This document shows, one piece after another, positions 7,933 through 64,000 of a DNA stretch of 64,000 nt. The position numbers and the translations under genes are program-made. Each line of letters starts with the position of its first letter. Within the stretch, counting starts at the first letter, position 1. Origin of the DNA: Papaver somniferum (lineage: Eukaryota > Streptophyta > Magnoliopsida > Ranunculales > Papaveraceae); contig NC_039366.1 of NCBI RefSeq assembly GCF_003573695.1, positions 160,026,770 to 160,090,769 of the forward strand. The letters run 5' to 3'. The notes under the pieces were generated by a model, which saw nothing but the letters and a program-made list of their open reading frames with translations, had not been told where the DNA came from and searched no databases.

Positions 7933-8445
7933 ATGGATAAGGGAAATGAAACCCACAGACCTAGAACCAAAAACGTTGCTCGAGGTATCGATCCAAAGAT
8001 TGGGATTTTAGCAAGAAATAAAGAAATTGTTGCTGCAAATGAAGAAGAACGCGAAGAAGAAGTACCCGTTGATGTAGTCGGTGGTTGCGATTCCGATATT
8101 CAAACACTTCGTCAACTTCAAATGGCTCCAATTAGGTAAGAATCTATCATTTTTGGAGTTTATTTCGCTTTAATTCGACGAATCGAGAAAAAAAATTTCT
8201 AGGGTTTTCGGTTATTTATCCAGATTCGGGCGATGTTCATGCTTATTTACTTCCGAATGTAGTTGTGCTCTTCATTTCTCAAGAACATCGACAGTATTCG
8301 GGAGAAATATTTGATGGTTATCGGCCGAATATTGTTGGCCATATCTTCCTGGATACAAACTGGTAATAATCGGTAGTTTAATGAATTTTTTGGCTCCCGA
8401 ATATATTTAAGTAGACACACAGTATTCGGAAGTACACTCACTGCC

Positions 8446-8479
<34 letters not shown>

Positions 8480-11400: not shown

Positions 11401-11795
11401 TATGTTCATTTTATATTATTCCTATAAATCTTAGGTAATTACCGTTTGATGTTATGTCATTACGTATAAAAAACAAGTGAATAGGTTCAAGCGTGTTTCC
11501 AAAATGTTAACTGCATGCCTGAAGAGCGGAGATCCCATGCCAGCTGAGAAGATCAAAGAGGCTAGAGACCTAGTTGATAATATGGATAACAAAGACTATG
11601 CTTCCCAGTTTGGGGAGAAAGTCACGAAGAGGCATCCGCCCAAGGTGGCAGTATCAAAGACGGGTAAAAGAACTCGAGCTTCATCGAGCGCTGAAGGTGC
11701 TCCAACTGAAGTTGCTCCAACTGAAGGTGCTCAAAACCCGTGGTCGTGCAGGACTGGGAGGTAGTCACGGTCGTAAAGTAAAGAAGAGCAGATAA
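7933..11795 (+). CDS. Plant mobile domain (PMD) protein carried by MULE-1, probably defective
   Basis: Proposed exons: 7933-8135, 8934-9414, 9502-10221, 10754-11383, 11492-11764. The ATG at 7933 opens a basic and acidic N-terminus (MDKGNETHRPRTKNVARGID). Exon 2 is rich in Gln/Ser/Glu repeats followed by a Lys-rich stretch. Exons 3-4 carry the PMD fold: an AISAFVERMYPETDTFHMPF block, then GEMTITPDDVVQILNLPDQG, SWGTTCLAFLMEELRKAS and, across the intron, LLQ joined to WIYDHFP. PMD proteins (MAIN/MAIL family) act in the nucleus, and relatives occur in transposons. Phases agree at the joins, but no AG lies before exon 4 (none between about 10653 and 10775). The C-terminus also ends early at 11764, while the +1 frame continues as RGRAGLGGSHGRKVKKSR to 11795. 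Both point to decay. The role within the element is unknown. Confidence 0.7.
8140..8930. repeat. ATTCGG/CCGAAT motif array in PMD intron 1
   Basis: Around fifteen or more copies of ATTCGG or its inverse CCGAAT lie in this one intron, often in longer shared contexts such as GTATTCGGGA, CTTCCGATTGTG and ACTTCCGAATGT. Related words (TTCCGATT, AATCGG) fill the gaps. Similar arrays lie at 10225-10740, 11810-12530, 15640-16200 and 16560-16660. The neighbouring exons hold hardly any. Confidence 0.85.
8448..8477. repeat. (TA)n microsatellite in PMD gene intron 1
   Basis: About fourteen TA dinucleotides lie directly next to a CCGAAT motif in the first intron of the PMD gene. Confidence 0.85.
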
Positions 11796-11809
11796 ATGAC
11801 AATGATTTG

Positions 11810-12530
11810 TGTTGTACATTCGGGACTTTACAAGGGCCAATATAGAAGGTTAGACAACCCATATTCGGAAGTTTGGGTAACTGAGTTGACTTCCGATTAT
11901 TGCAAGTTCAAAATCTGAAAAGTATCAGTTTTTCCCAAATTCTGATTTTTGGGCCATCGTACATTCGGGACTTTACAAAAAAAAATTATCCTCCGAATAT
12001 TACAAGTTCAAAATAAACCATGCCATGGATCTAGGTGGTTCCAAGGGCCAATATAGAAGGTTAGACAACCCATATTCGGAAGTTTGGGTAACTGAGTTGA
12101 CTTCCGATTATTGCAAGTTCAAAATTTGAAAAGTATCAGTTTTTCCAAAATTCTAATTTTTGGGCCGTCGTACATTCGGGACTTTACTCGAAATACCCAC
12201 CAAATCGGTAGATAGATATTTAAGATTTCTACCGATTATAATATTCAGAATCAAAACGTGTATCATTACCAACCGATTACAATATTTGGAATCAAAACGT
12301 GTATTAATACCAACCGATTATAATATTCGGAAGTAAAACGAAGTAAGATACTTTCGAAGGCACGTCATTCGGAAGTAAGATATGTATATGTACTACCGAA
12401 TATAGGAGTGTTCCAATTTCTCCTGGGTTCTGAGTTCAAAATGCATATAATCGGATAGTTAGGAAAAATTAAAGAGCCCGATTCCTACATTCTGGAGACA
12501 ACATTGTATATTTTGCGACCGATTAAATCA
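11810..12530. repeat. ATTCGG/CCGAAT array between the two convergent MULE-1 genes
   Basis: The gap between the PMD and transposase genes has no coding region. It contains a direct duplication: the block with ATATAGAAGGTTAGACAACC at about 11839 recurs at about 12050, each followed by CATATTCGGAAGTTTGGGTA. It also holds about ten ATTCGG-type motifs. Confidence 0.8.
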
Positions 12531-12592
12531 TATATCTTCACAAAAAAGTTTCCAAAAAACTTGTACAAATTACATGTTCGAAAAAAGAACGA

Positions 12593-15464: not shown

Positions 15465-16251
15465 CTAAACGTGCATAAAACAAAACAAATCTAATAAGCA
15501 TAACCATTTAACATATAAATTTTGAAAAAAAAAAAATAGTAATGAGTATACCAAATCGTTTGCATAGTAGGGAAGTGTCGGGCCTCAAATAGAAATCATC
15601 AACAAACTCTTCAACGGCCTGCATATGAAAGCAACAAATTATACAATAATCGGAGGTTATTAAATAAGTCAAACTGCCGAATATACTATATTCGGAATCC
15701 TATCGGTTACCCAAAACACCCGATTTATGCAAATGAATGTACACAGTTTACTGAGTGCAAAAAATGATATAATCGGAAGCTAAAATATATAGTAAAACAA
15801 CCGAATATAAATAACCGGGAGATAACTTTAATCGATAAACATCCGATTTTCAAGTTTTCGGAAATTTTATTTTGAGGCCACTGTTATATTCGGCAGTCAA
15901 ATAATGTTAAACTATTACCGATTGTAAAGGATAAGAATACTGAGTTTTGAAATTTTTTGAGGAATTCGTTTTTGGGGATTCGGGGTAAATAACTCTACAT
16001 AACTACCGAATGTAGATTTTTTTGGAAAACCAGTTTGGGGTTTTTTCTCATATTCGGCAGTAAACTACTATCTTGGAACTACCGAATATACATATTTGGT
16101 ACTCTGTGTTATATTCGTAAGTTTATTCGAGAAATTATCTACCGAATCTGGGTAGTTCATGGCATTCAATGCATGCAATAATCGGTTTTTCTTGTTTACA
16201 AAAGCACACAAACGCATGCAAATCGAGTATTTGAGTTTCTTAACACAATAC

Positions 16252-16449
16252 CTGTGTTTTACATGCATCGTTAGCTTCAATATCAGGCGATTCTCCATTT
16301 TCTTCCATGAAAGGGTCGTCTAGGTTTTCCTCTCCACAAAAGTTTGGATCATTCAACATATACCCCAAATCGTCTTCTCTAAACGGTCGTGAACCCTCAA
16401 TATTTTGTTCTTCGCCATGATTCTCACCTTCTTCTTCATATCCATCCAT
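16252..16449 (-). CDS. Candidate acidic first exon of the MULE-1 transposase gene
   Basis: An ATG at 16449 opens 66 codons of a strongly acidic sequence (MDGYEEEGENHGEEQN...), ending in ACACAG before a GT donor at 16251. Acidic N-termini are usual for FAR1/MULE transposases. The next exon is uncertain: a piece at about 15619-15552 has plausible splice signals, but its phase fits neither neighbour, so either the gene is further decayed or the model is wrong. Confidence 0.5.
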
Positions 16450-16761
16450 TTTTGTAGTGATAAAATGGGTTTTCCCTTTTTTCCTTCACCTTCTTCTCTA
16501 TAACTCTAACAACTCAAAAATGAAAAAGAAATGGAAAAAATGAAACAGAAATCATTCTAATACTGCACCGACTACAATCGGAAGTCTGGGTAATATTTTG
16601 GCTTCCGATTGCAATCGGAGGATAAAAATGTTATCATATCCTCCGAATATATAAGGGTAATTTGCCATTACGAATTACGCGAGATAAGGACTGGCTACAT
16701 TTTCCCTTTCGGTGACCTTTTGTGTTTTATTGTTGGCCCCTAAAAACGCGAGGTAATTTAT

Positions 16762-19056: not shown

Positions 19057-22000
19057 ATGGATTACAGTAGAAGGCTAATGGAGGAGAGGGGTCCATGGAT
19101 TCCAGTAACACCTGCAAAACCTATGCCAATAAGACCACAACCTATGAACTCTAATGGGAGCCAACCAAATTGGATTGATGCTGTTGGGGTGGGTTTTCCA
19201 GCTGAGTATTTTCACCAGAATGCAAGTCTTCCTCATAGTAATTTCACTAGTGCTACTACTACTGCTACTTCTAATGGAGGAGTAATGAATGCATGCTTTA
19301 ATTCAATGGATTATGTGGATCGAAGTAGAGGAATGAGTACCTGGGAAGAAGCTTTGCTTGGGAATCACAGAACTGCAACTGACATTGTTGACAACACTTT
19401 CCCAGAAACTTCGTGTAGTAGTAATACAATCGGCTCGGTGTGGGATAATATTGGATTTTCGGAATTATTAGCTCTCAGTGGAACGCCTGCTGGGGCCGCC
19501 TCAATTCTCTCTCAAAGAGGCGAAAACATTGCAGTCAACAGTACAAACTTTCCCATTTCAAATTCTCATGTTCGTGGTAGCCTGCGATATACAAATAGGC
19601 CAATTGCAGATCAGAATTTTGTTACAAGCTCTAACTTGTCGAACAATCACAGCAACTTCTCACCGCATGCACCACCAGGTAAGTGACTGTAAACCTATCC
19701 CTTTCTTTTATTTTGTTTACAACTATCATTTTCCATTAATTTCTAAACTTTCAGACTAGGCAAAACTATCATTCATTTGAAATATTATTCATACCTGGAC
19801 ACTGAACACCAAACATGAAACTTGATTGACCTGAACAAGTGATAACACTCTTTTGTTGATTCATGTAATAACTGCATGCACTTCTACAGATGGGTTTCCT
19901 GTTCCATACCGTCCCACGTTCGACCTTAATTCTCCATCTCAAACATTTGCTGATGCAGTCTCAAATGGTGATATATCTTTACAGTTTTCACCTATTACAC
20001 CACCTCAGATTAAGGGAGGAGCAGTAAACCAGCATTCTGAAATTGCAGAGCATGTCTCAGTAAGAGTATCAGATTTGGTGAACAACGAAGTAGACCAAGG
20101 AAGTAATAACGGTATTGAAATTCAGTGCCAAGATTCACTCTTGCATTCTGTAGTGAACTCACCATCAGCTGCTGCCTCTATATTGCTTAAAGAGAATCAA
20201 AATGCAGACAGGACAGAGGAGCACGGCATTGACCTAAACAAGACACCAGTACTGAAGCCTAAACGGAAAAAGGTCAGACCCAGAGTTCTCATTGAAGGCA
20301 AAAAACCCAGTAAGACTCCTTACCACCGCACCAAGCAGCCTAGTGCAAAAGAAACTCCATCTGTGAAAAGGAAGTATGTAAGGAAAAATGGCCTTAAAAC
20401 CTCAAATACCCCCGCAGCCAATATTGAAGAAGAGGTTAATGCAGATAAGGTCATTCTTAAATCTGCCAAAAAGGTTTTGAATTTCGACTTGGTAGAAGTA
20501 AGAGATGGAAGCCGCAGCAGCACAACGGGTTATCACGAGGGGTTGCTGAGCAGCATTGTGGACAGTTCTTCAAGCAGGTGTAAGGAAAATTCACAATCCC
20601 AAACCAATGAGATATGTAGTGGTGTTAATAGTGAAACTAAATTGACAACGGAGCTTCCACAAGGACTGGAAGCTGTGGTAGAGAATTCACCAGCAAGACT
20701 TGCATTTGATCTCAATTGTACATCAACTCAGCTTCTGGAAGATTTTATCTCAATCCCTTATAAACCAATTCCAACTACCCCACCACCTACAAGGAGAGAA
20801 CCAACACGGGAAAGTCTGTCTGCCCTTTTGAGTAGCAGAGATAACACGGTCATCATAGATACCTGCCTGAACAATGGAGAACAATATCATCCTATCAGGA
20901 ATCAACATACCCAATCATATCAACAAAATGCTACAGCTTCCATACTTCAGAGCAATATTCAATTCACAAACCGAAATAATTTGATTCGAAGCAACCAAAT
21001 ACAGTTGGAAGGGTGTGACCTGGCGAGGGGATCAAAGAGAGGATACTGTCATACCATTGCCGAGACGGATCTCCAATCACTGAATCCATTAAGGAGCCGT
21101 GGGAATACTCTCCAGACTTACCAGAAGAAGTTAGGAGGACATGGATACCACATAAACAGTAGCACTGCCGAGCTACCTTTTTCAGAAATTAACAAGAAAA
21201 CGAGGATAGAGAGAGACCAGAATGTTGTCAATTCTAGCTTGGATTCTTCGGTTGCATCTTTTCTGGAAAATACAAGAAAAAAAATGGCATGCAAAGAGAA
21301 TGCTGTCAATGCCAATCGCATTGCATTTCAAGCTAAAACCAGAAGTGTCATTCAATTGGGCAATGTCAGTATAAACCACCCGAATGGAGCTGGTCATTCA
21401 GCACCAAATCTGCAGTTACAAGCGGTCGCAAATCAAAACTGCAGACTGCCAGATACTTGGGAAGCATTGCTTTCACACACCCAAAAACCAAGCTGTGAGC
21501 AATCTGAGAAGACAGCATACCTTGGTCAAACTAAGAACCGGTCAATAGTACCTGCACAGAACTGTGAACTGAGCTCCCTTACTACAACTCTTGATTGCAG
21601 TAAAATGCCAGGAACTCCTCAAAAAATGGCACCAATCCCTGGTGACAAGCTTGGAAACAAGAACTTCTCTAGGCATCGAGAAAGCAGAGCAGACCTGGCT
21701 GTAGATAACCAAGTGAAGAAGCCAAGAAGAGGGCGGCCGTCAAAGACACTTGACAATGGAATTTCTGTCTCCCGCTCCAGAAAAAAGAATGAGAGCCTTC
21801 AAAAGCGTGAGATGTTTATATATACTCAACATCCAGTCAATGAGAAGCCAAGAGGTTATCCTGATGGAACTAAATTTTTAGAAAGTATGTTTTGGACTAT
21901 CTTTTCTCAATTCCTATAGAAACTAACTGAAGCAACTACTTGAATTTTCTGCTGCAGGTTCATCAGATATGTCATGGCTTTCCATGGATGAGATAATAAA

Positions 22001-25000
22001 TAAGATAGACCGCCTAACGATCAATGATATGAGGACAGACGTGCCGGCACCAGAACAATATGCACTGGTTCCATTTGGAAGAGAGGGGCAAATGGTTCCA
22101 TATGAAGGTCTGTTTAATGGTATCAAGAAAAAACAGCTGCGGCCCAAAGTCAATCTTGATGCAGAAACTGATAGAGTGTGGAAGCTTCTGATGGGAATAC
22201 AGAACAATGATGGTGTTGAGGGGACCACTCAGGATAAAGAAAAGTGGTGGGAAGAAGAGAGAAAAGTTTTCCGTGGAAGGGCAGATTCATTCATTGCCCG
22301 CATGCATCTCATCCAAGGTACCTAATAAGTTATGAGCAGTTGATGTTTACTACTTTATAATAATAAGTCATATGTTTAAGTCCATGAAAGGCACAACTTT
22401 GGATAGAATAAGCTGGCAACACAGGAACTATTCAGTGATCTTCAAAGTTGGGACTGTGCTGTTGATGATATAACCAAAAAAAAAAAAAACACTGACAATT
22501 CTAGTGATTGGCACGGTGCCTACAAGGCTACAAGTAACGATAGGGCATTTCATTAAAAATGAGATGGGCCTGTATTTTTAGAGTTCAACCCCAAAAACCG
22601 TCTAGCTTAACCTTACAACAAAATAAATGAATAGACAAACATAAAAATCGAGGCAGCATAAAAATAAATATCTGAAAGAGATGAACTGTATAGTGCTTTG
22701 ACAAGACTGAATGAGGCCTTTATTATAGTTTTGGTACAAAATCTGATTTGAGTGCAAACACAGTGCCTACCTTATGCAAACCCTTCAGTAAAAAAAGAAT
22801 GAACTATAACAATGAGCTCTTTACGGAGTACTGAGTGAAAGATTTTACAAGGCAATGTATGTTCTTTACAGGGGATAGACGCTTCTCGAAATGGAAAGGA
22901 TCTGTCGTGGATTCAGTAGTTGGAGTCTTTCTTACGCAAAATGTCTCTGATATTCTCTCAAGGTAAGCCTCAAGTTTCTGTACTATTCAATCAAAATTTT
23001 CCGTAAGAAAATCCTCGTAGCGATGATGCTAGAGTTATATTTTCTTTTTCTAAAGGCAGAAACTCATTCTACTACTTTACAGTTCTGCCTTCATGTGTCT
23101 TGTGGCCCGATTTCCCTTAAAAACGGCAACCAACAACAATGCATGCAGCAAGGAAGGAACACAAATTATAGTCGAAGAGCCAGAGGTGTGCATTGTAGAT
23201 TCAGATGATAACATCAGTTGGCAAGAAAAGATGCCAGATCGTTTATTATCCAAACAAGACTATGTTGACATCCGTGAACTGCAGTTAGAAGAAAGGGAGA
23301 CAGGACACAGCAATGAATCATTTGGAAGCAACGTTGGTGGTTCGTCGAACCCAGGAACAGGGTGTCAGTTTTTGGTAGAAGCCGGAGATAAGAGAGCGGT
23401 GGAAGACGTAGTTTCATCACAAAACTCGGTAGTTTCGTCTCAAAATTCAATAGACTCAACCGAATTCCAAACAGCCGACGGAAACATTACTGCAAGGATA
23501 AGAGGAGAGAGCTTGTTAGAGAATGAGGTCAGAAGACAGTTGGAAGATGTTGTTTCATCTCAAGTCTCTGTAGATTCTTCAAGCATTTGTACAGATGACA
23601 GAATCAGATCATACTCTTATTTCAACTCCGGACCAGAGATAGCACCCAGTTGTACATCAAACAGTGTAAGTAATCATCCTTCTTTTACGGAACTTTTGCG
23701 GATGGGAGGTACCCCCTTGTTGCAAGAGCATTATAGTCAAGAAAGTGGGAACTTTGCTCAAAATCTAAACTCCAAAAGTTGTCGAGGTCAATCAGAAGGA
23801 AAGCGACAAGAAAAGAAAAGTGTAAGCACGAGCGGAATAGATGGATGGAAAGAGCTATTTTCTGTCTGCCCTTCCACTTCAGTTCCCAAAATGCAGTTGC
23901 CCAATCCCCCGCACTATTTGTTGCAGATGACCCCAGAGACAGTAGTACAAGAGGTTGAGTCACCAAAGATGTTGGGAATAGACAGTAGGTTTTCTTTGTC
24001 ATCAGATGCTCCTCAAATGACAACCGTAGTAGACACAAACTGGATGTGCAAAACGGTAATGCCAAATTCTGAAACTGTAAGTAACCGACAAATGTTGTCG
24101 ACAAATGCTGAAGCTGCACTCAAAACCGATACATACCCATTGGCAAGCAAGTGCTTAGAGCTCCCAGATATAAGTGCAGGACAAGAAACTCTCATTAGAG
24201 AGCACCAGGATTCATGGAATAACCTTCAAAAGGTTAGAGACGGCACCTTCAGATATCAAAGCTGTACAGCCACAGAATCTACAAACCCTGTTGAGACCCA
24301 AGCTCAAATGGGCAGCGTGATGCAGCAACCTCACTCAAACTTCGTAAATCTCTCACACGGGAACTTAGATGCTGAAGTCAGTACGTCGCTGACAGATAAG
24401 CAAACGTCTCAGAAAGAGCAAATACGTTCCTCAGACGGGGTATTTAGTGGGAAAACCATCAATGGTTCAAAAGCCAAAGGAAAGCCTGATAAGGAAAAAA
24501 AGAAAGAATTCGACTGGGATAGCTTGCGAAGGGATGTGTATCAGAAAGGTTTAAAAAGAGAAAAAAGCAACAACACAATGGACTCTCTGGACTGGGAAGC
24601 AGTGAGAACTGCTGATGTTAGTGAGATTGCCAACGCAATCAAAGAGCGAGGAATGAATAATATGCTCGCAGAGAGAATCAAGGTAAGCCTATAATCATTC
24701 ATCTTCTATGACTCAACAACTCAGGAAAACTTTGTTAGTATCATCAATTTGTATGAATGCATTTAAAGTAATAGAGATGAAAACAATTGCCCCATCTGCA
24801 GGCTTTCCTCAACAGGCTTGTAAGTGATCATGGAAGTATCGACCTTGAGTGGTTAAGGGATGTTCCGCCTGACAAGGCAAAGTAAGTCAACAAACTTGGA
24901 GCATACCTCTTTCAATATATTTTGGAAATTATTCAATTTCTTGTTTCAAGCAACAATCCATGGTGTCAGTTGTTAGTAATATTTGTTTTCCTCTGTTAAT

Positions 25001-27913
25001 TCCGACTTAATTATAATAGTTTGCCATTTTGTAGGGAATATCTGCTAAGCATAAGGGGATTGGGACTCAAAAGCGTGGAGTGTGTCAGACTTTTGACACT
25101 TCACAACCTCGCTTTCCCAGTGAGATATGAATTGCATAATCTTGTTAATTTTGTGCTGAGCTGAAAAGACGTAAAAACTTACACAAATCATCTCTATGTT
25201 ATGAATTTGCAATAGGTCGACACAAATGTTGGACGTATTGCTGTCAGACTAGGATGGGTACCACTTCAACCATTGCCTGAGTCCCTTCAACTGCATCTGC
25301 TAGAACTGTGAGTTTTATACATATAACAAAGATCATTAAACACAATTTTTCTCTCAATGATGAAACTTGCTAATTTGCAATTCTGGTATAGGTACCCAAT
25401 GTTGGAGACCATCCAGAAATTTCTTTGGCCACGGCTGTGCACACTTGACCAACCGACATTGTAAACTCATAATCCTTTTAAAGCTGTTATCTATTGCAAA
25501 CTGTATTTGATTATTTGGGTGGGAAAAAGTTTACGAGTTTATCTAATTTCATGAACTATTGCTGATTGACATCATGTAACCACAGGTACGAGCTGCATTA
25601 CCAGTTGATTACATTTGGAAAGGTATGTACTGTATTTACTAAGAATATGAGCTGATGTGAATGCGAATGTGACAAGTTAAATAACCTGGCTAATTGAAGT
25701 GCATGCATGACTTCATACAGGTTTTCTGTACCAAGAGCAAGCCAAATTGCAATGCATGTCCGATGAGAGCAGAATGCAGACACTTTGCAAGTGCATTTGC
25801 AAGGTATACTTGTCATCCCTAAAGATTAATTTCTTACTCCCTGAGGATGGGTGTTGGATACTTATGGACATCATTTAGAGAGGCACGGCCTTAGTATTTA
25901 GATTGAGCTTGGTATATCCTTTTCAAACTATCTTGGTGCTCTATAATTTAAACAATTTCTCAAGAGTTGACATGATTGAATCTCTATGTTGTTACTATCG
26001 ATGCACGGTTACACACTGTGAAACTAGCATCTTAATTATTACGAGGTGACTGATAACGAATGTTGGGTACAGTGCCAGGCTCGCCCTGCCAGGGCCAGAG
26101 GAAAAGGGTATTGTAACTTCATTTCCTTCAGAGAAATACCAAAATCCGCCCATGGATGCCAATCCGATGTCACTTCCTCTACTAGAAGCAAATCTGGCTT
26201 CAGGAACAAGAATCAGAAAGAATGAATGTGAGCCTATTATCGAAGAGCCGGCAACACCGGAGAATGATTATGCAGAAACACTGGAGAGTGATATAGAAGA
26301 TGCTTTTGGCGAGTGTCCCAATGAAATTCCTTCAATCAACCTCGACATTGAAGAGTTCACGATTACCTTACAGAATTACATGCAAGAAAACAAAATGGAA
26401 CTCCAAGAAGGCGATCTCTCCAATGCATTGGTGGCGATAACTCCTCGAGCTGCTTCCATCCCGGTACCAAAGCTGAAGAATGTCAACCGACTCCGAACAG
26501 AACACCTAGTGTAAGTACAATGATGAATACCAAGTTCGCCATATGAGGCCCAAATCTATTGTTGGAACCACGGCAATCTATGGGATTCTATGCTAACAAT
26601 TTCCCCTTGATTGCAGCTATGAACTTCCAGATTCACACCCTCTACTGGAAGGGGTTAGTTATTCTCTCCACTACTGGCCTCTCAATTTGTTACTGACTCA
26701 TCTCAGCACCTAATGCACTTAAATGTTCTTGATTACAGGTGCCAAGACGAGACCCTGATGATCATTGTTCGTATCTTCTTGCTATATGGACACCAGGTGA
26801 GCATGATTGTGAAACAGTTGTAACAGTATTTAAGAAAACCTACAATTTCATACGATCCTACCCTGTAAACGAATAAATAACCTAAAACCTGTTGTGCCGC
26901 CTGGCATGATAAAAAGTTTAAATCCTTGAGCTAATATGCTTCCAATTCTGTGTTTTAAGATACTCAAGTTTCTTCCTAACTTGAAACCTATAAAACATTT
27001 GGCATTCTTACATATCAAAAGCTAACTAATCATGCAAATGTGTAATATCAGGTGAAACGGCAGAATCAATTCAACCACCCGAAGGATGTTGTAGTTCCCA
27101 GGCATCAGGTAACCTATGCAGTGAGAAGACATGCTTTTCATGCAACAGTACACGTGAAGCAAGCTCCCAAACAGTCAGAGGAACACTTCTGGTAAGAAAA
27201 TGTAACTCTTTTAATTTAGAAACCTCGCTAGACCCACTTTTAGATGCTGATTAGCTTTTTTGCATCCCATGACTAGATACCTTGCAGAACAGCAATGAGA
27301 GGAAGTTTTCCTTTGAATGGAACATATTTTCAAGTGAATGAGGTAATTTTTTTTTGATATTCCCATTCTAATCTAAGTGTTTCCATGCATCCCATGTCGA
27401 GTTAAGTTCAGATCGAGCAGTATTAAAACTAATATATAATTGCCCTTTAGGTGTTCGCTGACCATGATTCAAGCCTTAATCCAATTGACGTTCCGAGGGC
27501 CTGGATATGGAACCTACCAAGACGAACTGTTCTGTTTGGAACCTCAGTATCAACGATATTTAAAGGTAAAGAGGATCCTTAGAGATGGTTAATTTCAAAG
27601 TCTACAGTACTAGGTCAAAACAACTAACTGCAGAACTTCAATTTTTGGTTTGTAGGTCAAACAACACAAGAAATTCAAAATTGCTTCTGGAAAGGTATTA
27701 ATTGATATCTACTAGATCTCATTTACTGCATAAGCGTGCTATGACCAACAGCAGAGAACATTTTTCTAATAAATAATGAATTATCCGGTTGCAGGATTTG
27801 TGTGTGTTCGTGGATTCGACCAGAAGTCGCGTGCACCCCGTCCTCTTATGGCAAGATTACACTTTCCAGCAAGCAAATTGGTCAAAAATAAATTATATGC
27901 AACCAAGGAATAG
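19057..27913 (+). CDS. DME: DEMETER-type 5-methylcytosine DNA glycosylase/lyase
   Basis: Nuclear enzyme that excises 5-methylcytosine to start active DNA demethylation. Nineteen exons: 19057-19678, 19890-21884, 21958-22317, 22872-22962, 23083-24682, 24802-24881, 25035-25119, 25216-25307, 25392-25460, 25586-25622, 25721-25803, 26073-26510, 26617-26653, 26739-26796, 27052-27191, 27277-27342, 27451-27565, 27656-27694, 27795-27913. All phases join, giving 2041 residues, close to full-length DME. The N-terminus has the PWIPVTPAKP motif, a basic block near 329 and an AT-hook (KKPRRGRPSK) near 818. Domain A starts near 993 (GDRRFSKWKGSVVDSVVGVF). The HhH-GPD domain has RGLGLKSVEC with catalytic Lys about 1595 and FPVDTNVGR with Asp about 1613. 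The Fe-S ligands C1680, C1687, C1690 and C1696 fit C-X6-C-X2-C-X5-C. A permuted CXXC unit and the RRM-like DME domain close the protein. DME versus ROS1 subclass is inferred from the N-terminus and length; a tree would decide. Confidence 0.95.
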
Positions 27914-28016
27914 ATCATGATGCAAGGATGATAATCAGAAATATATCCTAACCAAGATCTGAAAGCCAAAAGAACAGATCACCGACCAAGAAACTACCAA
28001 GCATTAAACGGTTACA

Positions 28017-44527: not shown

Positions 44528-47014
44528 ATGAATAAATCTCCAACTTCTGAATTCGGAACATTTTCATCTCCGCCTTCGATGTTTCTAGGACAAAAAGGAA
44601 GTACTCATGGAGAGTGTTCTGGTTTTACTGATTCTTCTTCTTCAACTCCACTGATGGTTGAACCACTTACTGCTATAAAACAATTTTCTTTAGAAGAAAA
44701 TTCTAATAGAGAGAAATTTTCTGAGAGTAATTTGAAGATTAAGGGGGAAAATACAAGAGTGGGTTCAATACCTCAACCTTTAGAATGTTTACAAGGTAAT
44801 CCTGTTCCTCCATTTCTCTCGAAAACTTATGATTTAGTTGATGATCCGTCCTTGGATAAGGTGATTTCTTGGGGATTGAATGGTCAGAGTTTTGTGGTTT
44901 TGGACACGATGGAATTTTCCAAAGTTGTACTTCCGCGGAACTTTAAGCACAACAATTTCTCCAGTTTTGTTCGGCAGCTAAATACTTATGTGGGTATCGT
45001 AGGAAAGCAGCCTCTAACGGCTGCTGTACTCTGTTTGTAATTCCCCCCCCTTAATTTTTTGTTCTTGTAAATTTGTGTAGTTTCTTTGTAATTTTGTGTA
45101 GTTTTTTCCTAATTTCGTTTCACTGATCGCTTTGTAACCTATTTTTGTCAAGAATCGATGTAGATTACTGCCAAGGTACAAGCCTTATTATTAAAATTGG
45201 GAAACAACTCAGATTTGTCAATGCTTGTACATGTTTAATTGGAATTTCAGACATTTTTTGATTGATTACTTCCATTAGATTTTGATTGTTAGTATAAGAA
45301 TTATGGTCTGGAAACCTTTGAAGACATTATTCACTTCTTTTGGCTGTACAATGATTGTTACAATGTTTTGTTTGGTTCATGAAATTTTATGTTTCTTGTG
45401 TTGTTTTAGTTCTAATGCTGTCAAGAAAGTTGTAATTGGTTTCGTATCTTCTGATGTTTGTTGTTGGTATCTCAAGTTTGTGTGTATGTTGATGCAACTC
45501 CACGGCATAGATTATGGAAATAGTCATAGAAGGGTCATTCTTTTTATCCTATATACACCTGAGATTCTTTCCTTTTCTTTGGAATTTTTCTGTATGACTT
45601 GCCACTTGATAACATTACCTTTCTTCTATCACTGAAGCAGGCGGCGGGAGTCTCACAGGTAGTAAATGTGTATCTTAAGATGTTATAATCCTCATTCCTG
45701 TTTAATTCCATTTTCATTTCTCCCTGTAATCTTATATTGTCTTTTGTTTAATGGTTGCTTAGTTGCTTACAGATTGGCTCTGTAGGGTAATTAGATCTTG
45801 TTCGTGTGCATGATCACGTGGGACGCAACATATCTCGTATCAGATGTTCTTAACATATAAACCTATTATTGTTTTTGTGTATTATGTTTCTCAAGATGTG
45901 ACCCATTGATTCTAGAGTCTCTGTTGGTTACTGTGCTCAGGGTTTTCGCAAAGTTGAAACTGATCGCTGGGAATTTGCAAATGAAGATTTTTTACGTGGG
46001 AGGAGGCACTTGTTGAAAAACATCCACAGGCGCAAGTCTCTCCAAGGACAGCAAATTGGGGGATTCTCACAGTTCACTGGTGAAACAGGGATATCCAAAT
46101 TGGATGGTGAGGTACAGCAGCTGAGAAATGACAGGAATTTCTTGATACAGGAGCTCTCAAACCTGCACCGAGAGCATCGAGGGAGAGCTGAACAGGTAGA
46201 GGCAATGAAACAGCGGATGACAGTGGCGGAACAGAGACAGAAGCAGATGCTTTCATTCTTGGCGAAAGTTCTACAGAACCCTGTATTCTTGTCCCGTCTT
46301 CAGCTAATGAAGAAGCAGAGAGAGATTACTTCTCCAAGGATGAAAAGAAAATTCATCAAGCAACAGTCAGCTGATGGCTGTAAACTAGCTTCATCTGTAG
46401 AAGGGAAGATCGTGAACTATGACTCAAAATTGTGCCATGTTGCTTCTTCAGCACTTTCAGATATAGAAGAACCTGTCACAGATAAGCATCTAACTGACAA
46501 TTTCTTAGACGATATGGTGGGGAAACTAGAGCTTGGTGCAACTCATAAGCAAGTTCAGGTTTGGAACGTTGCCTCAAATGAATTAGTGCAAGAACTTGTG
46601 GGTGCTTCAGGTCAGATGGGAATGGAGATACTGGATGTAGGATCTCTGGGATGTCAGGGAGGCAAGGAAGTATTAAACGGTCAACCTGAAGTTGTTGGGG
46701 AACCTTTTGTCTCCTTTGCGGAGGATTTGGCGAAGGAGAAGACGTTTCCTGACTTTATGTCGCCAGGAGTTGAAAGCATCATTAAAGAGGAGGACATCTG
46801 GAGCAAGGGATCCGAAATCAGTTTTGGTCTGCCTACTTCTACCAGTGATATATGGGGTGATATTGCCAACTTTGACCCTCAAGATCTTCAAGTCATAGGT
46901 GGATTTTCAAATCTGTGGGACCAGGAATTCGAAGCTGCTGGAGGTTCAGGAAGTAATATGTGGGCCGATGATGAACTGTCTTTCAATGACACTGAAAGCA
47001 GTCCAGACAACTAG
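44528..47014 (+). CDS. HSFA3: Class A heat-shock transcription factor, HsfA3 type
   Basis: Nuclear activator that binds heat-shock elements as a trimer. Exons 44528-44989 and 45941-47014 join in phase 0 (511 residues). The intron sits inside the DNA-binding domain after LNTY, before GFRKVE, the conserved plant HSF position. The DNA-binding domain spans residues 94-187 (starting [20 protein letters not shown]). The hydrophobic heptad oligomerisation region HR-A/B lies at about 208-275 and has the extended class A spacing. A basic nuclear-localisation stretch follows at about 277-295 (KKQ, then MKRKFIKQQ). The C-terminus has a KEED motif and four Trp-centred acidic motifs (DIWSK, DIWGD, NLWDQ, NMWAD). 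The PLECLQGNP lead-in and the Trp-rich activation region instead of a classic AHA motif are HsfA3 hallmarks. It appears intact. Confidence 0.92.
44990..45940 (+). other. HSFA3 intron, 951 bp
   Basis: GT at 44990 and AG at 45939-45940. The intron is T-rich without recognisable repeats or RNA genes. Retained reading would add only sixteen residues after LNTY before a stop at 45040, giving a protein with a truncated DNA-binding domain. Confidence 0.85.
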
Positions 47015-55366: not shown

Positions 55367-56370
55367 TTTTACTTAACCACTTTTTAATATATGTATATAA
55401 TTTTCAAACAAAAAATCAAACTAAAATTAAGTAATTATTTAATATTTATTTTTATTTTTGATAAATTAAATGAAATGGTATCATAAAATAGTTTGAAAAT
55501 AAAATATAATAATATTTAAGAAGTAAAATATAAGAAATAAAAAATTGATTGTATATATATTTAAGGGTAATTTATGTCATTTACAAATAAAATAGGGACA
55601 AAAGGGATAAATTAAGCATTAAATTTTGGTGGGACCAAAACTTATGTTTTTGTAGCTTTTAAAAGCTCCTCCTCCCCGGCTTTTAAAAATTGAGAAATTT
55701 GGGAAGTGCTTTGGGTAAAAAGCACTTTGATTTTTTTTTATCAAACACCAATTTCAAAAGCGAATTTTAGGCGCTGGCCCAAAATAATTTATTTTCTTAC
55801 CGTCAGGCCCTTAATTAACTTTGGATATGCTCGCACCCAAAGTTTTTTATAAATATGTTTTTACTCTATTACCCTCGGCAGTTTCGAACTAAAGCGGTTT
55901 TTCTTTTCTCCTGAGAAGTTATTACCCTAAGCGGTTTAAAAACTTTCAGCAGTTTCTTTTCTCCTCCACCAAAAACTCTGTAACTGATTTGAGGAGTTAA
56001 TTTCTTCTCCATTTAAACCCTAGAAAATCAATTTCATACTCTATAAAACCAACCTAGAAACTAGTTAAGTTGAAATTACAAACCCTAGAAAGAACATTTC
56101 GACAAGAATGAACGAAACAGAAGCACAATCAGGTTAACAACATCATTTTATTTTAATTTCTTCTCCATTTATCACTTTCTTTTTCTTTGATTTTAACATC
56201 ATTTTTACTTGTTGATGTTGAATTTGAAAATGGAGAAACAGATAGTGAAAGACCACTGATTGAGTTTACAATGAAGGCAAAGGAAGATTCTGTGAAAGAG
56301 AAAAAGGAATTGTCTGGTATGCATCTATAATAAGTCATTTGTTTTACTTTTAAATAACATATGTTACGCA

Positions 56371-56850
56371 GGAAACATAATGTGCATAACTTGTTATGCA
56401 GTAAAAATAACTATGCATAACTGCGTAGCTTATTATGCATAACTGGTTATGCAGTAAAAGCAACTATGCAGAACTGCGTAGCTTATTATGCATAACTTGT
56501 TATGCAGTAAAATCAAACATGCTGAACTGCGTAGCTTATTATGCATAACTGCTTATGCAGTAAAATCAAACATGCTGAACTGCGTAGCTTATTATGCATA
56601 ACTGCTTATGCAGTAAAATCAAACATGCTGAACTGCATAGCTTATTTGCATAACTTGTTATGCAGAAAAAGCAACTATGCATAACTGCGTAACTTATTAT
56701 GCATAACTTGTTATGCAGTAAAAACAACTATGCTGAACTGCATAACTTGTTATGCAGTAAAAGCAAACATGCTGAACTGCGTAGCTTAGTATGCATAACT
56801 GGTTATGCAGTAAAAACAACTATGTGCATAACTAGTTATGCAGGTACATA
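56371..56850. repeat. TGCATAAC/GTTATGCA array, intron 1 of the Ulp1-type gene
   Basis: About twenty copies of TGCATAAC or its inverse lie in 480 bases, many paired as the 18-mer TGCATAACTTGTTATGCA or with GG or TA at the centre. Part of the array is a 53-bp tandem repeat (56504 onward, unit starting GCAGTAAAATCAAACATGCT, at least two full copies). Confidence 0.9.
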
Positions 56851-57129
56851 ACTTGCATGATGCATAAGTCATGATGATTTAACCCCTTTCTTACTTTTAA
56901 GTACTTATTATATTTTATCTTTTGTGTTGAATTTGTCTGTTTCAGTCAAGCAAGTTGTTGATAATAGGAAGAAAAGAAAAAGACGTGAACCCCAACAAAC
57001 AGAAAAACTTAAAAAGAAGAAGAACCAAGGTGAAAATGAAGAAGAAGAACCTGCCCCCTTATGCATCAATTATTATAAAGAAGGTGCGTTAACCTGGCAA
57101 TCATTAATAACATGTTATCCCCATATAAT

Positions 57130-57262
57130 TTCTTATGTTCAAAAAATAAATGCATAACAGGTTATATACTATGCATAATAGGTTATGCACACAACTGTCT
57201 GTTTAACAAATCTGCATAACAGTTTATGCATAAGCCTGGATAAAAGGCATATGAGGTTATGC
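57130..57262. repeat. TGCATAAC/GTTATGCA motifs, intron 2
   Basis: Several copies (AATGCATAACAGGTTA, CTATGCATAATAGGTTATGC, GCATAACAGTTTATGCATAA) fill the intron between exons ending 57083 and starting 57325. Confidence 0.85.
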
Positions 57263-58119
57263 AGTGAAAGTAGCAATTCTAACTTAGTAAAATACTTTTT
57301 TATTTTGTTATTTTGTTTGTGCAGTTAAAGCTAAGACCAAGCCTGCAACTCAAGGAGGTACTTATAGAGCAGGTTTTCCAAGGATATTTGCATTGTTCAA
57401 TAGGATAAGGGAAAGAGGTGGTTTTAGTCAGTTGCAGGCTAATATATCAATGTGTCTCCATTTGGGAAAGTCTATAACTGGTTAAATGCTGCGAACATTT
57501 CATACTTGGATGGTAAGAGAAACCAGCTGATGGATGAGGTCCTTTTATCATATGACCATGATGATTTGAGTCAGCATTCACTCAAGGTGTCAGAAAACAA
57601 GTATATACAGTCAACGGCTAGTGAGCTAGCTGTTATTTTTCAGATGCCAAGAGTTAAAGGAAACAGAGGAAGAGATATTCTGACCTCAAAAGAAGAGATA
57701 GGGATGACTCAGTCACTTGCCCTCGTCAAGCAATTCCCATGCAAAACAAGAGCAGGTGCTGTGAATAAAACTCCCAAATCACAAGTAACAAAGGTGTGGA
57801 TAGATGATATTGAAAGGTTGTTGATGGAAAAACTTGATCAGAAAGGTCATGAAGAGGAAGTTGTTTCCCTTGCATGCCTTTACATGCTAGTGGTTCTGTT
57901 TTTTTGTCGATCAATGGGAGACTCACTGGACGTCTCGTATGTTGGTTTGGTGAAGGATTTGGAAACCATGGATTCTGTATCTTTTCCTGATCTAATTCAC
58001 CAACACCTGATGGATGGCATCAAGACTGTCAAAAGAGACAATCTTCTTATCAGGAATTGCGGTGGTTGCACTGTATATTCTCTTGTGAGTTCTTTTTTTT
58101 CTTTTTTAAACTTTCTTAA

Positions 58120-58315
58120 AAAATATCTGCATAAAAAGTCTGCATAACTAGATATGCAGTACCATAAAAATCTGCATAACTAGTTATGCAGTATAATTTT
58201 TATACTGCATAACTAGCTATGCAGTACAAATAAAATGTGCATAACATGTTATGCAGTACAAAAAAAAGTTATGCAGTACAAAATGTGCATAACAAAATAT
58301 GCATTACAAATAAAA
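58120..58315. repeat. TGCATAAC/GTTATGCA motifs, intron 3
   Basis: About ten motif halves lie here, including CTGCATAACTAGTTATGCAG at about 58171, in the intron that splits the PMD-like region. Confidence 0.85.
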
Positions 58316-58519
58316 TAAATGTATATAATATCTTTCTTTTTTTTTCAGCTTTGGTTGGATGAGCACTCTAACATAGCTGAGATATCATCATCAGACATTG
58401 TCAAGGTCAATCCCAATGCTACACCAAAAGCTGCAAGGTGGGACTTTGCAGCAATGAAGAAATCAATGCTCAAGAAGCATATTTCAAGCTTAGAGGTACT
58501 TGTTTATGAACCTTAAGAA

Positions 58520-59370
58520 TGAATGTATATTTCAAGCATATGAAAGCAAACATGCAGAACTGCATAACTTACTATGCATAACTTGTTTAACTGCATAAAA
58601 TACGAACATTGTTTAACTGCATAACATCTTATGAAGATCCAAAAATAACTGCATGACCTGTTATGCATTGTTTAGAGTATCTGCATAACTTGTTATGCAT
58701 ATAAGAAGTGTTATTGTTTTTGTTAAGCATTCCCTGTGTCACTTATTGTTTTAATGCACAACATCTTATGCAGATCCAACATTGACAGCATGACAAGTTA
58801 TGCATTGTTTAGGTTATCTGCATAAGTAGTTATGCATATAAAAGGGTTTTTACGCCTTCCCTGCGTCACTTATTGTTTTAATGCATAACATCTTATGCAG
58901 ATCCAACATTGACAGCATGACAAGTTATGCATTGTTTAGGTTATCTGCATAAGTAGTTATGCATATAAAAGAGTTTTAACTCCTTCCCTGCGTCACTTAT
59001 TGTTTAACTACATAACATCCTATGCAGATCCAACATTGACAGCATGACAAGTTATGCATTGTTTAGGTTATCTGCATAAGTAGTTATGCATATAAATTTT
59101 TTTTTACGCCTTCCCTGCGTCACTTATTGTTTAACTGCATAACATCTTATGCAGATCCAACATTGACAGCATGACCTGTTATGCATTGTTTAGGTTATCT
59201 GCATAAGTAGTTATGCATATAAAAGGTTTTTTACGCCTTCAATGCGTCACTTATTGTTTAACTGCATAACATCTTATGCAGATCCAAAATTAACTGAATG
59301 ACCTGTTATGCATTGTTTAGGTTATCTGCATAAGTAGTTATGCGTATAAAAATTTATGCATTTGCTGATG
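58520..59370. repeat. Motif array with 127-bp tandem repeat, intron 4
   Basis: From about 58729 the intron is a tandem repeat with a 127-bp period (unit edges at 58729, 58856, 58983, 59110, 59237), five copies. Each unit contains CTTCCCTGCGTCACTTATTG, a CATAACATCTTATGCAG pair, a GTTATGCATTG half and a TGCATAAGTAGTTATGCATA pair, so the private motif is amplified with the unit. Confidence 0.9.
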
Positions 59371-61139
59371 ATTGTTATTAAATCATGTTGCAGTTTCAAG
59401 AGAACTTTAGAGATGAGTACAGTGCAATGGAGTTGGAACTCTGTGAACCAAGAGAACCAAGAAAAAGGTCAGCTATATTGGAACTCGTTGCAATGAATCT
59501 TGAAGAGAACGGGGACAAGTATGAAGAAGCATTTCAAGATGCGTTACAAATCATTGAAGAAGAGAAGTGTCCTGATAGTATTGAAGCAAGGTTTAAGATT
59601 ATTCAAGCAAAGCTGAAAGACATGAAGAAGACTCAGGAGACATATAGACGGACTGGAGGAGACTTCAATTCTCAGATGTATGGATATGTGAAGATTTTTC
59701 TCATTGATTCAGGCATAAATGAGGTGCAGGAAGAGTCGTCAGGTGGCCCTAGCTTAAATCCATCATCAGCTGATACTATTGTCCCACTTTGTGAAAATTT
59801 TCCAAAGAATCAGACACATGTTGAAGTAGTATCTTCAACTGAACCACCTACTCAAGAAGCATTTCCAGAAGTTACCAGACTTGATAGCCAAGAGAAAACT
59901 GCTAGTCAAGGACTCAAGTCTTCACCTTTCAAGTTCATGGACATGGAAAAAGCTGTTGATCTCTCCATCTACAAGGAAATTGACACACCAGAGAAATCGG
60001 AGACAACACCAAATCTTGCAACAACTCAGGAAAGAATTGAAGCGCAAGAGAAAGATTTTTTGGATGGTGATGATGATGATGACATTCTTTCAGAAACTGA
60101 GAAGAAAGCTGAAGAAAATGAACAACCCACATTTGATATCCATATTTCACAAGGAGATGATGCTGGTGGACAACAACAGCAAGCTGTTGAGATGCCAGAA
60201 GAGACAGTCGCAGAAAAGCCGGAACAACTCGCTGTTGAGATGCCAGAAGAGCAATCCACAAAAAAGCCGGAACAACCAGCTGTTGAGATGTCCATTGATG
60301 AGGGAACATGTGATAAATATTTAGAAGAAATTATGGAACCTGCACTGAAGTACTTAGAAGACCTGGAAGAAGAATTTGTTTCTGGAACAAAATTTGGGAA
60401 GAAGGAAACTATGAAGAAATACTCGAGAAAAAAGGATGGGGACCATGAACATAAAGAAGGAAGAAACCAACAAGGAAGCAAGGTAAGGAGAATCAAGGAA
60501 AGGACATTGAGTAAAGAAAGGACAGCCAGTATACTACTCAAAGATTGTGAACTAGGGAAGCAGCAGAAGAAGAAGCCTGATGACAATAAAGTTCAAGAAG
60601 AAGAACAAAGACAAGCCTGTACGTCTGTTGGCAGGCCATTCAGTAAATTACCTCCGCTGGAAACAATGACATGTTTCAAAGATTACAAAGATACAATAGA
60701 ATCACCCATGAAGAAAGTACTGCAGACATACTTTGAGCATGCCAACAACCTGTAAGTATATATAAACTACCTCTATGCTTGTTTAAATAATAAATGCATT
60801 ACAAGTTATGCTTCAAAACAACCCATGCATAATAAAAGAACCCATGCCACTAATTGTGTCTTCTACAGAAATACTATTTGGAGTATCAGAGACGGAGAAG
60901 ACCCGTACTTATGGGATATTCGGATTCACGGAGATGTAATAACGCAGCTAATGAACAATGAATACCTAGAAGAACAAGTTATACGCTATTACAGTTACAT
61001 GTTGTTCAAGAAGCGGAAAAATGAAGAGAATAATGTGAGTTTTCAACAGCAGTATGCGGAGTGTTCATTCATGAGGCCAGATGCTTGGGTAAGTTATCTC
61101 CCAACACTTTAACTTTTAAAACTATTTTGCTACATCTAA

Positions 61140-61470
61140 ATTTGAACTGCATAACTAGTTATGCAGTTAAATTTGAACTGCATAACAAGTTATTCAGCAT
61201 ATTCTTACTTCTGCATAACAAGTTATGCAGCTAATTTTAACTGCATAACAAGTTATTCAGCTTTTTTTTACTTCTGCATAATATGTTATAACCTAAAGTT
61301 ATCTGCATAAGTTATGCAGTTAAATTTGAACTGCATAACAAGTTATTCTGCATAACTAGTTATGCAGTTAAATTTGAACTGCATAACATGTTATTCGGCA
61401 TATTCATACTTCTGCATAACTTGTTATGCAGATAAATTTAACTGCATAACTACTTATGCCGTATTGTTTC
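61140..61470. repeat. TGCATAAC/GTTATGCA array, intron 6
   Basis: About fifteen motif halves lie in the intron between the two Ulp1-domain exons, many as CTGCATAACTAGTTATGCAG or TGCATAACAAGTTATGCAG, separated by AAATTTGAA spacers. Confidence 0.9.
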
Positions 61471-62108
61471 CTACACCTGTTGTGCACCCTTTCAATGACA
61501 AACTCTAACCTTTTTTTTTCCAGTACTTTGTTAAAACTAGGGTCAATGATGGGATTGCCAAATTTGTTGAAGAATTCATCTTGAATATCCCTATCTCAGT
61601 TGAGAAAATGTTCATTCCAATGAACTATATAACAAAGGAAAATCCTGCTGGTACACATTGGACATTGTTAGAGTATGACTTTTCAGAGGGTGAGTGGAAC
61701 TTCTATAATAGTGTTTCAAGCTTTAAAGTTAAATGCAAGAATCAAGCTCTGATAATGGCAAAGGCTTGTATGCCTTATTTGATCAAAAGACATGACCAAA
61801 TGAAGATATCTCCAGAAATTGTGGATATAAAGAGGGAACCTCTTATATACAAGGATATTATTTGCAAGAATATTCCTGAACAAGGTCATCACCCAGACTG
61901 CCTCATATTTGTATGCTACTATATGAAGATGAGTATGAAATGTCAAGTCAGAGAGAAATGGCTGAAGTTGAAAAAGAAAGATGCAATAAAAAAAGCCAAC
62001 AAGAAAAGAATAAGTCTGGTATTGAAAATGTTGACAGATCCAGTTAACAGTTGGAAGATAGATGCAAATGAAGACGTCTGGGATGCAATTGCTCAACAAT
62101 ATGATTAA

Positions 62109-62814
62109 GCTGTGTAATGTTATGCATAATGTGTTGGTATGAAGCATGTCTAAACAATTTATATCTTGTTAACTTTCGATTTTTTTATATACTTATATAT
62201 CAATGCTTTTTCCAGTGCTTCTTATATATATTTGCTACAATCTTATTTCACAAAAATTAGAAAAACTGTACTATCATAATGGATAATAAGTTATGCATCT
62301 TCATAAAATAATGCATAACAAGTTATGCATCTTCAAAAATAATGCATAACAAGTTATGCATCTTCAAAAATAATGCATTTTCTATTATGCATTTAAGAAT
62401 AAAAATGAATAACGTTATCTTATAAAAATGATGCATAACCCGTTATGCATCTTCATAAAAATAAATGCATAACTTACTATGCATCTTCAAGAAATAATGC
62501 ATAATAAGTTATGCATTAGATGCATCTTCAAAAATAAATGCATAACTTACTATGCATCTTCAAGAAATAATACATAATAAGTTATGCATTAGATGCATCT
62601 TCAAAAATAATGCATAACTTACTATGCAATAACATTATCTGATATAAGCAGAAAAGAACAGTGAAAAAAGAATTATTTTTTTTTCATAAAAACCAATACA
62701 AAATGAAAAAGTACTTGTTCATAAAATCCCATACAGAAATTAAAATGAAGAAAAATGAATTAGGTTCAAACGTAAAACTAAGCTTGAAGAAACCAACAAG
62801 TTAAATTCTCTCCC
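62109..62814. repeat. TGCATAAC/GTTATGCA array between the convergent MULE-2 genes
   Basis: The motif resumes within about 15 bases of the stop codon at 62108. From 62285 to 62640 it forms a quasi-regular array of ATGCATAACAAGTTATGCAT and related words separated by CTTCAAAAATA spacers. No gene in this spacer. Confidence 0.9.
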
Positions 62815-63891
62815 TTAACTTCCCTTAGGATGCTTCAACGGCTTCTTGTAGCAGGTAGGATTTGTGCAAGTTTGCTTGTTGTGATGACCAATCTGAAAAC
62901 AATTACCACATCGAATAGATCTCCTTGGCGGCTTCTCGTAACTGCTCAAATGTCTATTAGCTGGTGGTCTCCCAGGCGGCCTCCTAACATCAGGCACATC
63001 GATAATCTGATTACCTTCATAAACTTCGGGCCTGTTGTAGTTTGGAATATGATGAATGGCATGGTTGTAGGTATTATTGAAGTATGAAGTAGTGAAATAA
63101 GGTTCAACAAAATCATATGGATTAGAACCAGACATTGTTATCGGAGCAAAAGCATGCACACATGGAAACCCATAGACGCGCCACCTCTGACAGGTACATG
63201 TCTTTAGATCAAGGTTAACACAATGAGAACTCTCCCCGCCCTCCACTTCATAAACATGAGTATCAGACTGTATAACCAGCCAGGTTAAACCCTCATCAAT
63301 AAGAGCCTTCATCTTTACTTCATTCTTCGGTGTGAGAACTGTTATGAAACTTTTACCGGTATTTCTCCTTTCTGACATCATCCTCATCACATCCTTCCTT
63401 ATCTGATCCAGAAGAGCATTAGCAGGGAGCTTCTTATGTACCTTCATCCAACTATTGAAGGATTCAGCAAGAGTAGAAGATGTCCTTCCATACCTACAAC
63501 CCTGAAAAAAGGCATTTGACCATCTCTCGGAGGTATATCTTCAATATAGTTTGCAACCCAACCACAACCAAGACCCCTAATCGTAGCAATGGATTTTGGA
63601 AGCCTTCAGGACTAAGAGCATATACAGCAGCATGAAATGCATCAATAACGGCACCATACCTTTCGTCAGAAGCATTAATAGGTAAGTTCATCTTAAGATG
63701 ATAATAGCAGAAACTATGGAAGGATCCAGGGAAAATAACTGGAATCGATCTCTTTAATCCTTCTGCACGATCGGATAAAAATGTGATTGGCCTTTGATCA
63801 TGATCAACAACATTACTCAAATTCCTCATGAACCATTCCCAGTTATCATTATCTTCAGCAGGTACTAGGGCCATGGCTAGTGGAAAGAACC
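62815..63891 (-). pseudogene. MULE-2 transposase, last exon, with two frameshifts
   Basis: The exon starts after a TACAG acceptor at 63892. In order on the - strand: FFPLAMALVPAEDNDNWEWF and ITFLSDRAEGLKRSIPVIFP (MULE DDE domain with the conserved Asp), then HSFCYYHLKMNL. At about 63591-63602 the frame changes to SIATIRGLGCGWVANYIEDI, and at about 63525-63532 it changes again to ERWSNAFFQGCRYGRTSSTL. This last frame runs to the SWIM finger (CTCQRWRVYGFPCVH, about 63198-63154) and a CCHC zinc knuckle (CGNCFQIGHHNKQTC) before the stop at 62815. SWIM and knuckle are usual for plant MULE transposases. The 5' exons and the first catalytic Asp lie outside the window. Two single-base shifts inactivate it unless they are assembly errors. 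Confidence 0.85.
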
Positions 63892-64000
63892 CTGTACAGC
63901 AAGAAAACATGGTTCAGGACTTAAAAAATTATAAAATCAAGCCAACGTATACATAAAGTATGTGCATCTAAATAAAATGATGCATAATGTCTTATGCATC
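63892..64000 (-). other. Part of a MULE-2 transposase intron
   Basis: Upstream of the acceptor at 63892 on the - strand. The motif reappears at the very end of the window (TGATGCATAATGTCTTATGC, 63979-63998), showing that the private motif also occupies introns of the transposase gene. Confidence 0.7.

Follow-up and report, generated by a model that had tools for sequence, protein, structure and literature searches.

Why should the introns and the intergenic spacer of a transposable element carry dozens of copies of one short palindrome, and which protein might read them? This question is raised by a stretch of 64,000 nucleotides (nt) from Papaver somniferum (contig NC_039366.1, positions 160,026,770 to 160,090,769 of the forward strand; the whole stretch is referred to as the window). 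At its right end lies a Mutator-like element (MULE), named MULE-2, whose interval was taken as 55766-64000, as given by a first-pass annotation of the same DNA. By analogy with the VANC mechanism of Arabidopsis VANDAL elements, we propose that the palindrome arrays of MULE-2 are probably the target sites of a DNA-binding protein encoded by the element, most likely its Ulp1-domain protein, in a VANC-like anti-silencing system.

The palindrome has the form TGCATAAC-NN-GTTATGCA and is 18 bp long. The window contains 81 exact copies of the half-site GTTATGCA, and 77 of these fall within MULE-2, against a mean of 2.31 and a maximum of 7 in 100 shuffles. The remaining 4 lie in the other 55.8 kb, and none is found inside MULE-1, a second Mutator-like element of 9,113 nt. 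When up to one mismatch was allowed, 133 half-sites were counted in MULE-2, which bears out the earlier estimate of more than a hundred. Only 4 of them fall in the 4,421 nt of coding sequence and 129 in the 3,814 nt of non-coding DNA (the coding limits used for mismatch-tolerant counts are a few bases off the final gene model), so the comparison of exons with non-coding DNA that had been proposed as a check gives a clear enrichment. Outside MULE-2, 57 such half-sites were found in 55,765 nt of the window, including 11 in MULE-1. A short motif that is dense in non-coding DNA and rare in exons and in the rest of the window is thus present, as in VANDAL elements with VANC genes.

Many half-sites are indeed joined into palindromes, as the first-pass annotation had stated. 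There are 18 perfect copies, and MULE-2 contains 35 palindromes with at most one mismatch and 57 with at most two, while no palindrome with up to two mismatches occurs elsewhere in the window. Relaxing the threshold gives 63 inside and 2 outside at up to three mismatches, and 77 and 28 at up to five. Among 69 palindromes with up to four mismatches, the central dinucleotides are TT (18), AA (15), TA (12), AT (10), TG, AG and CT (4 each), and CC and GT (1 each). Three of the four centres named earlier (TT, TA and AA) are therefore present, but GG is absent from these 69. A pattern of two palindromes had no match among viral contigs, and the region 56300-57300 had none among phage sequences; neither collection is expected to contain plant DNA.

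The palindromes are distributed around two genes that face each other:
56108..62108, plus strand: VANC/KIU-like gene of eight exons, a spliced reading built from landmarks picked by hand
56108-56132, 56236-56316, 56946-57083 and 57325-58084, plus strand: exons 1-4 of this gene
58349-58495, 59394-60751, 60869-61088 and 61524-62108, plus strand: exons 5-8 of this gene
61524..62108, plus strand: last exon, with the Ulp1 (Peptidase_C48) domain (Pfam match; weak match to SENP8, 1xt9, E 0.62)
62815..63910, minus strand: C-terminal part of a Mutator-type transposase gene, two open reading frames (ORFs) in different frames, no array

All seven introns of the eight-exon gene begin with GT and end with AG. 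The Peptidase_C48 domain was recognized with E values of 3.7e-08 on the last ORF and 1.6e-06 on the spliced protein, and a Ulp1 domain in a gene other than the transposase is what characterizes the Ulp1-bearing (KIU) type of VANC. The transposase gene, of which only the C-terminal part is within the window, encodes a MULE domain (PF10551, E 6.2e-12) and a SWIM domain (PF04434, E 2.3e-06); a Mutator-like transposase is likewise a feature of VANDAL elements with VANC genes. In the weak alignment with SENP8, the His of the THW motif is kept and YNS is found where SENP8 reads YDS; judged from these residues, the usual catalytic Asp of the Ulp1 domain may be replaced by Asn.

The non-coding segments holding palindromes are as follows (numbers of palindromes are for up to three mismatches; tandem units are from Tandem Repeats Finder, TRF):
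56317..56945: intron 2, array of 15 palindromes, 53-bp tandem unit
57084..57324: intron 3, 4 palindromes
58085..58348: intron 4, array of 5 palindromes, period 32
58496..59393: intron 5, array of 19 palindromes, 127-bp unit
60752..60868: intron 6, a single imperfect palindrome at 60795
61089..61523: intron 7, array of 9 palindromes, intervals often 30-33 bp
62109..62814: spacer between the convergent genes, 9 palindromes, from 62280
63911..64000: visible start of the putative transposase intron, one imperfect palindrome at 63981

The 127-bp unit of intron 5 holds three palindromes at intervals of 32, 32 and 63, and the intervals in the spacer are 32, 31, 89, 34, 32, 41, 32 and 40. The earlier description of five introns, the spacer and the transposase intron holds for introns 2, 3, 4, 5 and 7 and for the spacer, but the 90 visible nucleotides of the transposase intron contain just the one imperfect copy. 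The observation as a whole is confirmed, but saturation does not extend to all non-coding DNA from 55766 onwards: neither the first ~600 bp of the interval nor intron 1 has a half-site. The half-sites (up to one mismatch) do stop before the exons, yet they do so 33-77 nt from the edges of introns 2-7 rather than close to them, a distance that would leave the splice signals free. As for the restart about 15 bases past the stop codon, one isolated exact half-site is found at 62119, but palindromes appear only from 62280.

The symmetry of the motif had been read either as the site of a dimeric binding protein or as a hairpin-forming transcript. If the hairpins of the transcript acted as RNA, in splicing, as a source of small RNA or as a decoy, changes on one side of the stem would be expected to be answered on the other. 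In 36 distinct 18-mers (up to three mismatches), 52 positions are mismatched; 51 are one-sided, one is two-sided and unpaired, and none is compensated, whereas 3.7 two-sided changes would be expected under independence. The larger set of 69 palindromes shows 93 one-sided and 5 two-sided changes, 2 of the latter being paired. The RNA of intron 2 does fold better than all of 20 shuffled sequences (z -13.4), but this is due to the palindromes, as any palindrome array would give the same result. An RNA hairpin element was therefore rejected as a candidate, and a role of the transcript hairpins as RNA appears highly improbable. One-sided, uncompensated mismatches fit better with a protein on double-stranded DNA, and together with the symmetry and the fixed 2-bp gap they favor the other reading, in which a dimeric protein would bind the site.

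The geometry of the sites is regular. Among 58 divergent half-site pairs with gaps from -8 to 30, the gap is exactly 2 in 40, which places the starts of the two half-sites 10 bp apart. For 49 intervals of at most 150 bp between neighbouring palindromes (up to two mismatches), 26 measure 30-34 bp, the next most common values being 53 (5), 39-41 (5) and 63 (3). The preference for intervals of about 32 bp is firmly supported. Half-site distances have maxima at 10, 21-22, 31-32, 42-43, 53, 63-64 and 73-74, and further at 84-85, 95-96, 105-106, 115-117 and 127. For Ulp1-bearing (KIU) VANC systems, Sasaki (2022) reportedly found that specificity depends on the sequence of the motif, on how densely it occurs and on its helical periodicity. 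We scanned periods of 6-20 bp, excluding the distance within the palindrome and using jittered sites as the null. The best period was 10.5 bp in intron 2 (p 0.004), 10.5 in intron 3 (p 0.038), 10.7 in intron 4 (p 0.048), 10.6 in intron 5 (p 0.002), 10.6 in intron 7 (p 0.038) and 10.3 in the spacer (p 0.048). When one copy per tandem array was kept, with the limits of the collapsed arrays set by hand, the mean cosine over 265 distances was 0.43, compared with 0.00 +- 0.07 in 400 jitters (largest 0.24). For eight 6-mers that are abundant in the host DNA, the 10.5-bp cosine was -0.03, and at most 0.17. For 25 hand-picked intervals the fit to 10.5 is moderate: the mean cosine was 0.36 (p 0.004), and 12 of the 25 deviate from a multiple by no more than 1.25 bp (p 0.009). 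Rayleigh tests on unique palindrome intervals gave p values of 0.15, 0.007, 0.24 and 0.34 at 0, 1, 2 and 3 mismatches, respectively. Helical phasing as such is suggestive.

These results point to the following mechanism, modelled on VANC. The protein with the Ulp1 domain, encoded by the eight-exon gene, would dimerize on the 18-bp palindrome, and many such dimers, placed along the introns and the spacer, would clear silencing marks from the whole element or block them there. The transposase and the anti-silencing gene itself would then be transcribed, and each family would have its private motif, as in the VANC mechanism of Arabidopsis VANDAL elements. What supports the proposal is the confinement of the half-sites to non-coding DNA, the recurrent 2-bp gap, the similar best periods of all six arrays, and the presence of a Ulp1 gene and a Mutator transposase within one element.

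The palindromes might, however, be bound by the transposase of the element or by a host factor rather than by the Ulp1 protein. Palindromic sites are common among dimeric factors, and a transposase binds the element that encodes it. On the other hand, the different sites of the adjacent MULE-1 are not what a shared host factor predicts, and a transposase would have terminal sites, unlike the arrangement seen here, with the first ~600 bp free of sites and the introns filled (the right end is beyond the window). We regard a binder of this kind as unlikely, and the Ulp1-domain protein as the better candidate.

Known systems provide a comparison. VANC21 binds YAGTATTAY motifs that are clustered in the non-coding DNA of VANDAL21 (Hiun) and multiplied by tandem repeats, and VANC6 targets carry a different motif, AGTTGTCC/AGTTGTAC (PMC5735166). 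RNA-directed methylation hits the same non-coding regions of these elements (PMC10398659). Like VANDAL21, MULE-2 is a Mutator-like element with a short motif that, within the window, is private to it, is dense in non-coding DNA and is multiplied in tandem repeats; the motifs are found in introns and in intergenic and terminal non-coding DNA in VANDAL21, and in introns and the spacer in MULE-2 (PMC5735166). The self-specific recognition that had been suggested for the palindrome would fit this precedent. VANC proteins have DUF1985 and DUF287, whereas the MULE-2 protein has Ulp1 and DUF1985 was not detected in it. Ulp1-bearing VANC genes (KIU, Kaonashi) are described in a review (PMC13317346), and MULE-2 resembles the elements carrying them, by description rather than by sequence comparison, in being a Mutator-like element that has a VANC-type gene with Ulp1 and a motif in its non-coding DNA. 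MULEs have also captured plant mobile domains (PMDs), which are fused to the transposase and for which an anti-silencing role was speculated (PMC5418596). MULE-2 differs from these in that its protein has Ulp1 and no Pfam match to PMD.

A number of results weigh against the proposed anti-silencing system, beginning with the arrays themselves. For nineteen further 6-mers from these arrays the 10.5-bp cosine averages 0.44, so the 10.5-bp periodicity is a property of whole repeat units and not specific to the motif. The 25 intervals picked by hand fit a period of 8 better than one of 10.5 (0.55 vs 0.36), because 32 bp agrees with both. Conservation within the tandem arrays is not clearly higher for palindromes than for spacers: the values are 0.977 vs 0.959 for four copies of the 127-bp array, 0.963 vs 0.988 for five copies over the first 88 positions, and 0.956 vs 0.931 for five copies of the 53-bp array. 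A larger difference for the 127-bp unit (0.96 vs 0.88) was discarded, as this figure took in the tail of the last copy outside the array. TRF detected tandem arrays in introns 2, 4, 5 and 7 and in the spacer, with units of 53, 32, 127, 63 and 41/73 bp, among others; motifs in tandem repeats are a further trait of VANDAL elements with VANC genes, and the local spread of the sites came from duplication. All this could also be the outcome of neutral minisatellite growth, in which slippage and exchange multiplied an initial palindrome within non-coding DNA, where nothing eliminates the copies, and which the arrays, the similar conservation of palindromes and spacers, and the periodicity common to non-motif words would favor. 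After masking of the palindromes, however, the arrays have no word longer than 13 nt in common, and some of the short words that they do share are leftover half-sites. Since the repeat units differ in this way, local duplication alone does not put the palindrome in separate introns. An argument for selection is that introns separate from one another, and the spacer too, gained or retained this one palindrome with an unchanged gap. No comparable palindrome (up to two mismatches) exists elsewhere in the window. Neutral growth therefore seems an improbable explanation of the arrays as a whole.

Further points against the anti-silencing reading come from the proteins and from the state of the element. 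The N-terminal region of the MULE-2 Ulp1 protein has no Pfam match to DUF1985 or PMD. It resembles the PMD of MULE-1 weakly (E 0.019 by BLASTP in a comparison with three short sequences; E 0.011 by hhalign, but at a probability of 3.8%), in the segment for which the MULE-1 protein gives a weak DUF1985 match of its own (E 0.022, short of the curated cut-off). The label "PMD-like" given to the MULE-2 protein by the first-pass annotation was not confirmed. Residues 86-388 of the spliced protein have no relative among 1,430 candidates, and none of 423 candidates for residues 800-1104 reached E <=0.1. An alignment-free structure prediction for the part encoded by exon 4 was unusable (mean predicted local distance difference test score 34). 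For the whole spliced protein, one relative was found among 7,980 scored candidates, P0001 of Papaver somniferum, which is 66% identical in a 140-residue stretch of exon 6 and 49% identical in a 39-residue stretch of exon 3; it matches parts of these two exons, but not the exon 4-5 region and not the Ulp1 domain. In addition, VANC21 motifs share one orientation, whereas the MULE-2 sites are inverted pairs (PMC5735166). Each MULE-2 gene has one frame change, near 57450 in exon 4 and at 63447-63494 in the transposase, reflecting either slight decay of this copy or small assembly errors. The right end of MULE-2 is beyond the window and the ends of the element are out of view, which bears on full membership among VANDALs, a group marked by degenerate or missing terminal inverted repeats.

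A partial match to the plant mobile domain, below the Pfam cut-off, lies in the N-terminal part of P0001, and this part resembles the PMD of MULE-1. P0001 thus joins a MULE-1-like partial PMD to sequence like exons 3 and 6 of MULE-2, and stems either from a composite element or from an error in the gene model.

The neighbouring element provides a comparison within the window:
7641-16753: MULE-1, complete element with inverted ends and an 8-bp TAATTTAT duplication

Its PMD gene was identified by two ORFs (E 1.9e-28 and 1.2e-09) and is faced by a transposase gene. Like the PMD-bearing MULEs of PMC5418596, MULE-1 carries a PMD, here in a gene beside the transposase. With coding limits set by hand, 68 of 70 sites of the MULE-1 motif AWTCGG within the element are non-coding, and 12 sites are present in the next 39,013 nt. 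The gap is 23 or 24 in 22 of 26 convergent AWTCGG pairs, and the distances between sites on one strand group around 41-42, 80-83 and 121-124. The 10.5-bp cosine is not raised in MULE-1 (0.03; the best value is 0.46 at 10.1). A single motif common to both elements was ruled out, as the letters differ. It had been stated that the two motifs have nothing in common; this is true of their letters, but the MULE-1 sites are likewise non-coding inverted pairs with a fixed gap. The observed/expected ratio of CpG is 0.32 in the introns and spacer of MULE-2, 0.31 in its coding sequence, 1.31 in MULE-1 non-coding DNA and 0.60 at 17-55 kb.

Two other genes lie in the window. Beside MULE-1, a gene at 19057-28000 presumably resembles a DNA demethylase of the DEMETER/ROS1 type, judging from features of its ORFs; ORF 19853-21919, the sole ORF of that gene scanned, had no Pfam match. 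A heat-shock transcription factor gene is found at 44528-47014, with the HSF DNA-binding domain in ORF 44528-45040 (E 9.6e-20).

A literature search found no description of such an array, although the motif letters were not queried and most subscription papers were not covered, so absence is not shown. The two Mutator-like elements, ~39 kb apart, each have their own presumed regulatory gene, with a PMD in MULE-1 and with Ulp1 and an unclassified N-terminal region in MULE-2, and an array of inverted pairs whose geometry is fixed. It is possible, if still rather doubtful, that both are anti-silencing systems; sequence-specific anti-silencing would then be broader than VANC, with distant proteins of transposable elements using dimeric, regularly spaced non-coding sites. 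That such a pair of elements lies close together, each with a protein and a motif unlike those of the other, would bear on the suggestion of PMC5418596 that captured PMD proteins act in MULE anti-silencing. The symmetric site of MULE-2 makes the mode of binding directly testable. If our proposal is true, self-specific anti-silencing would extend outside Arabidopsis, with a palindromic, dimer-type target.

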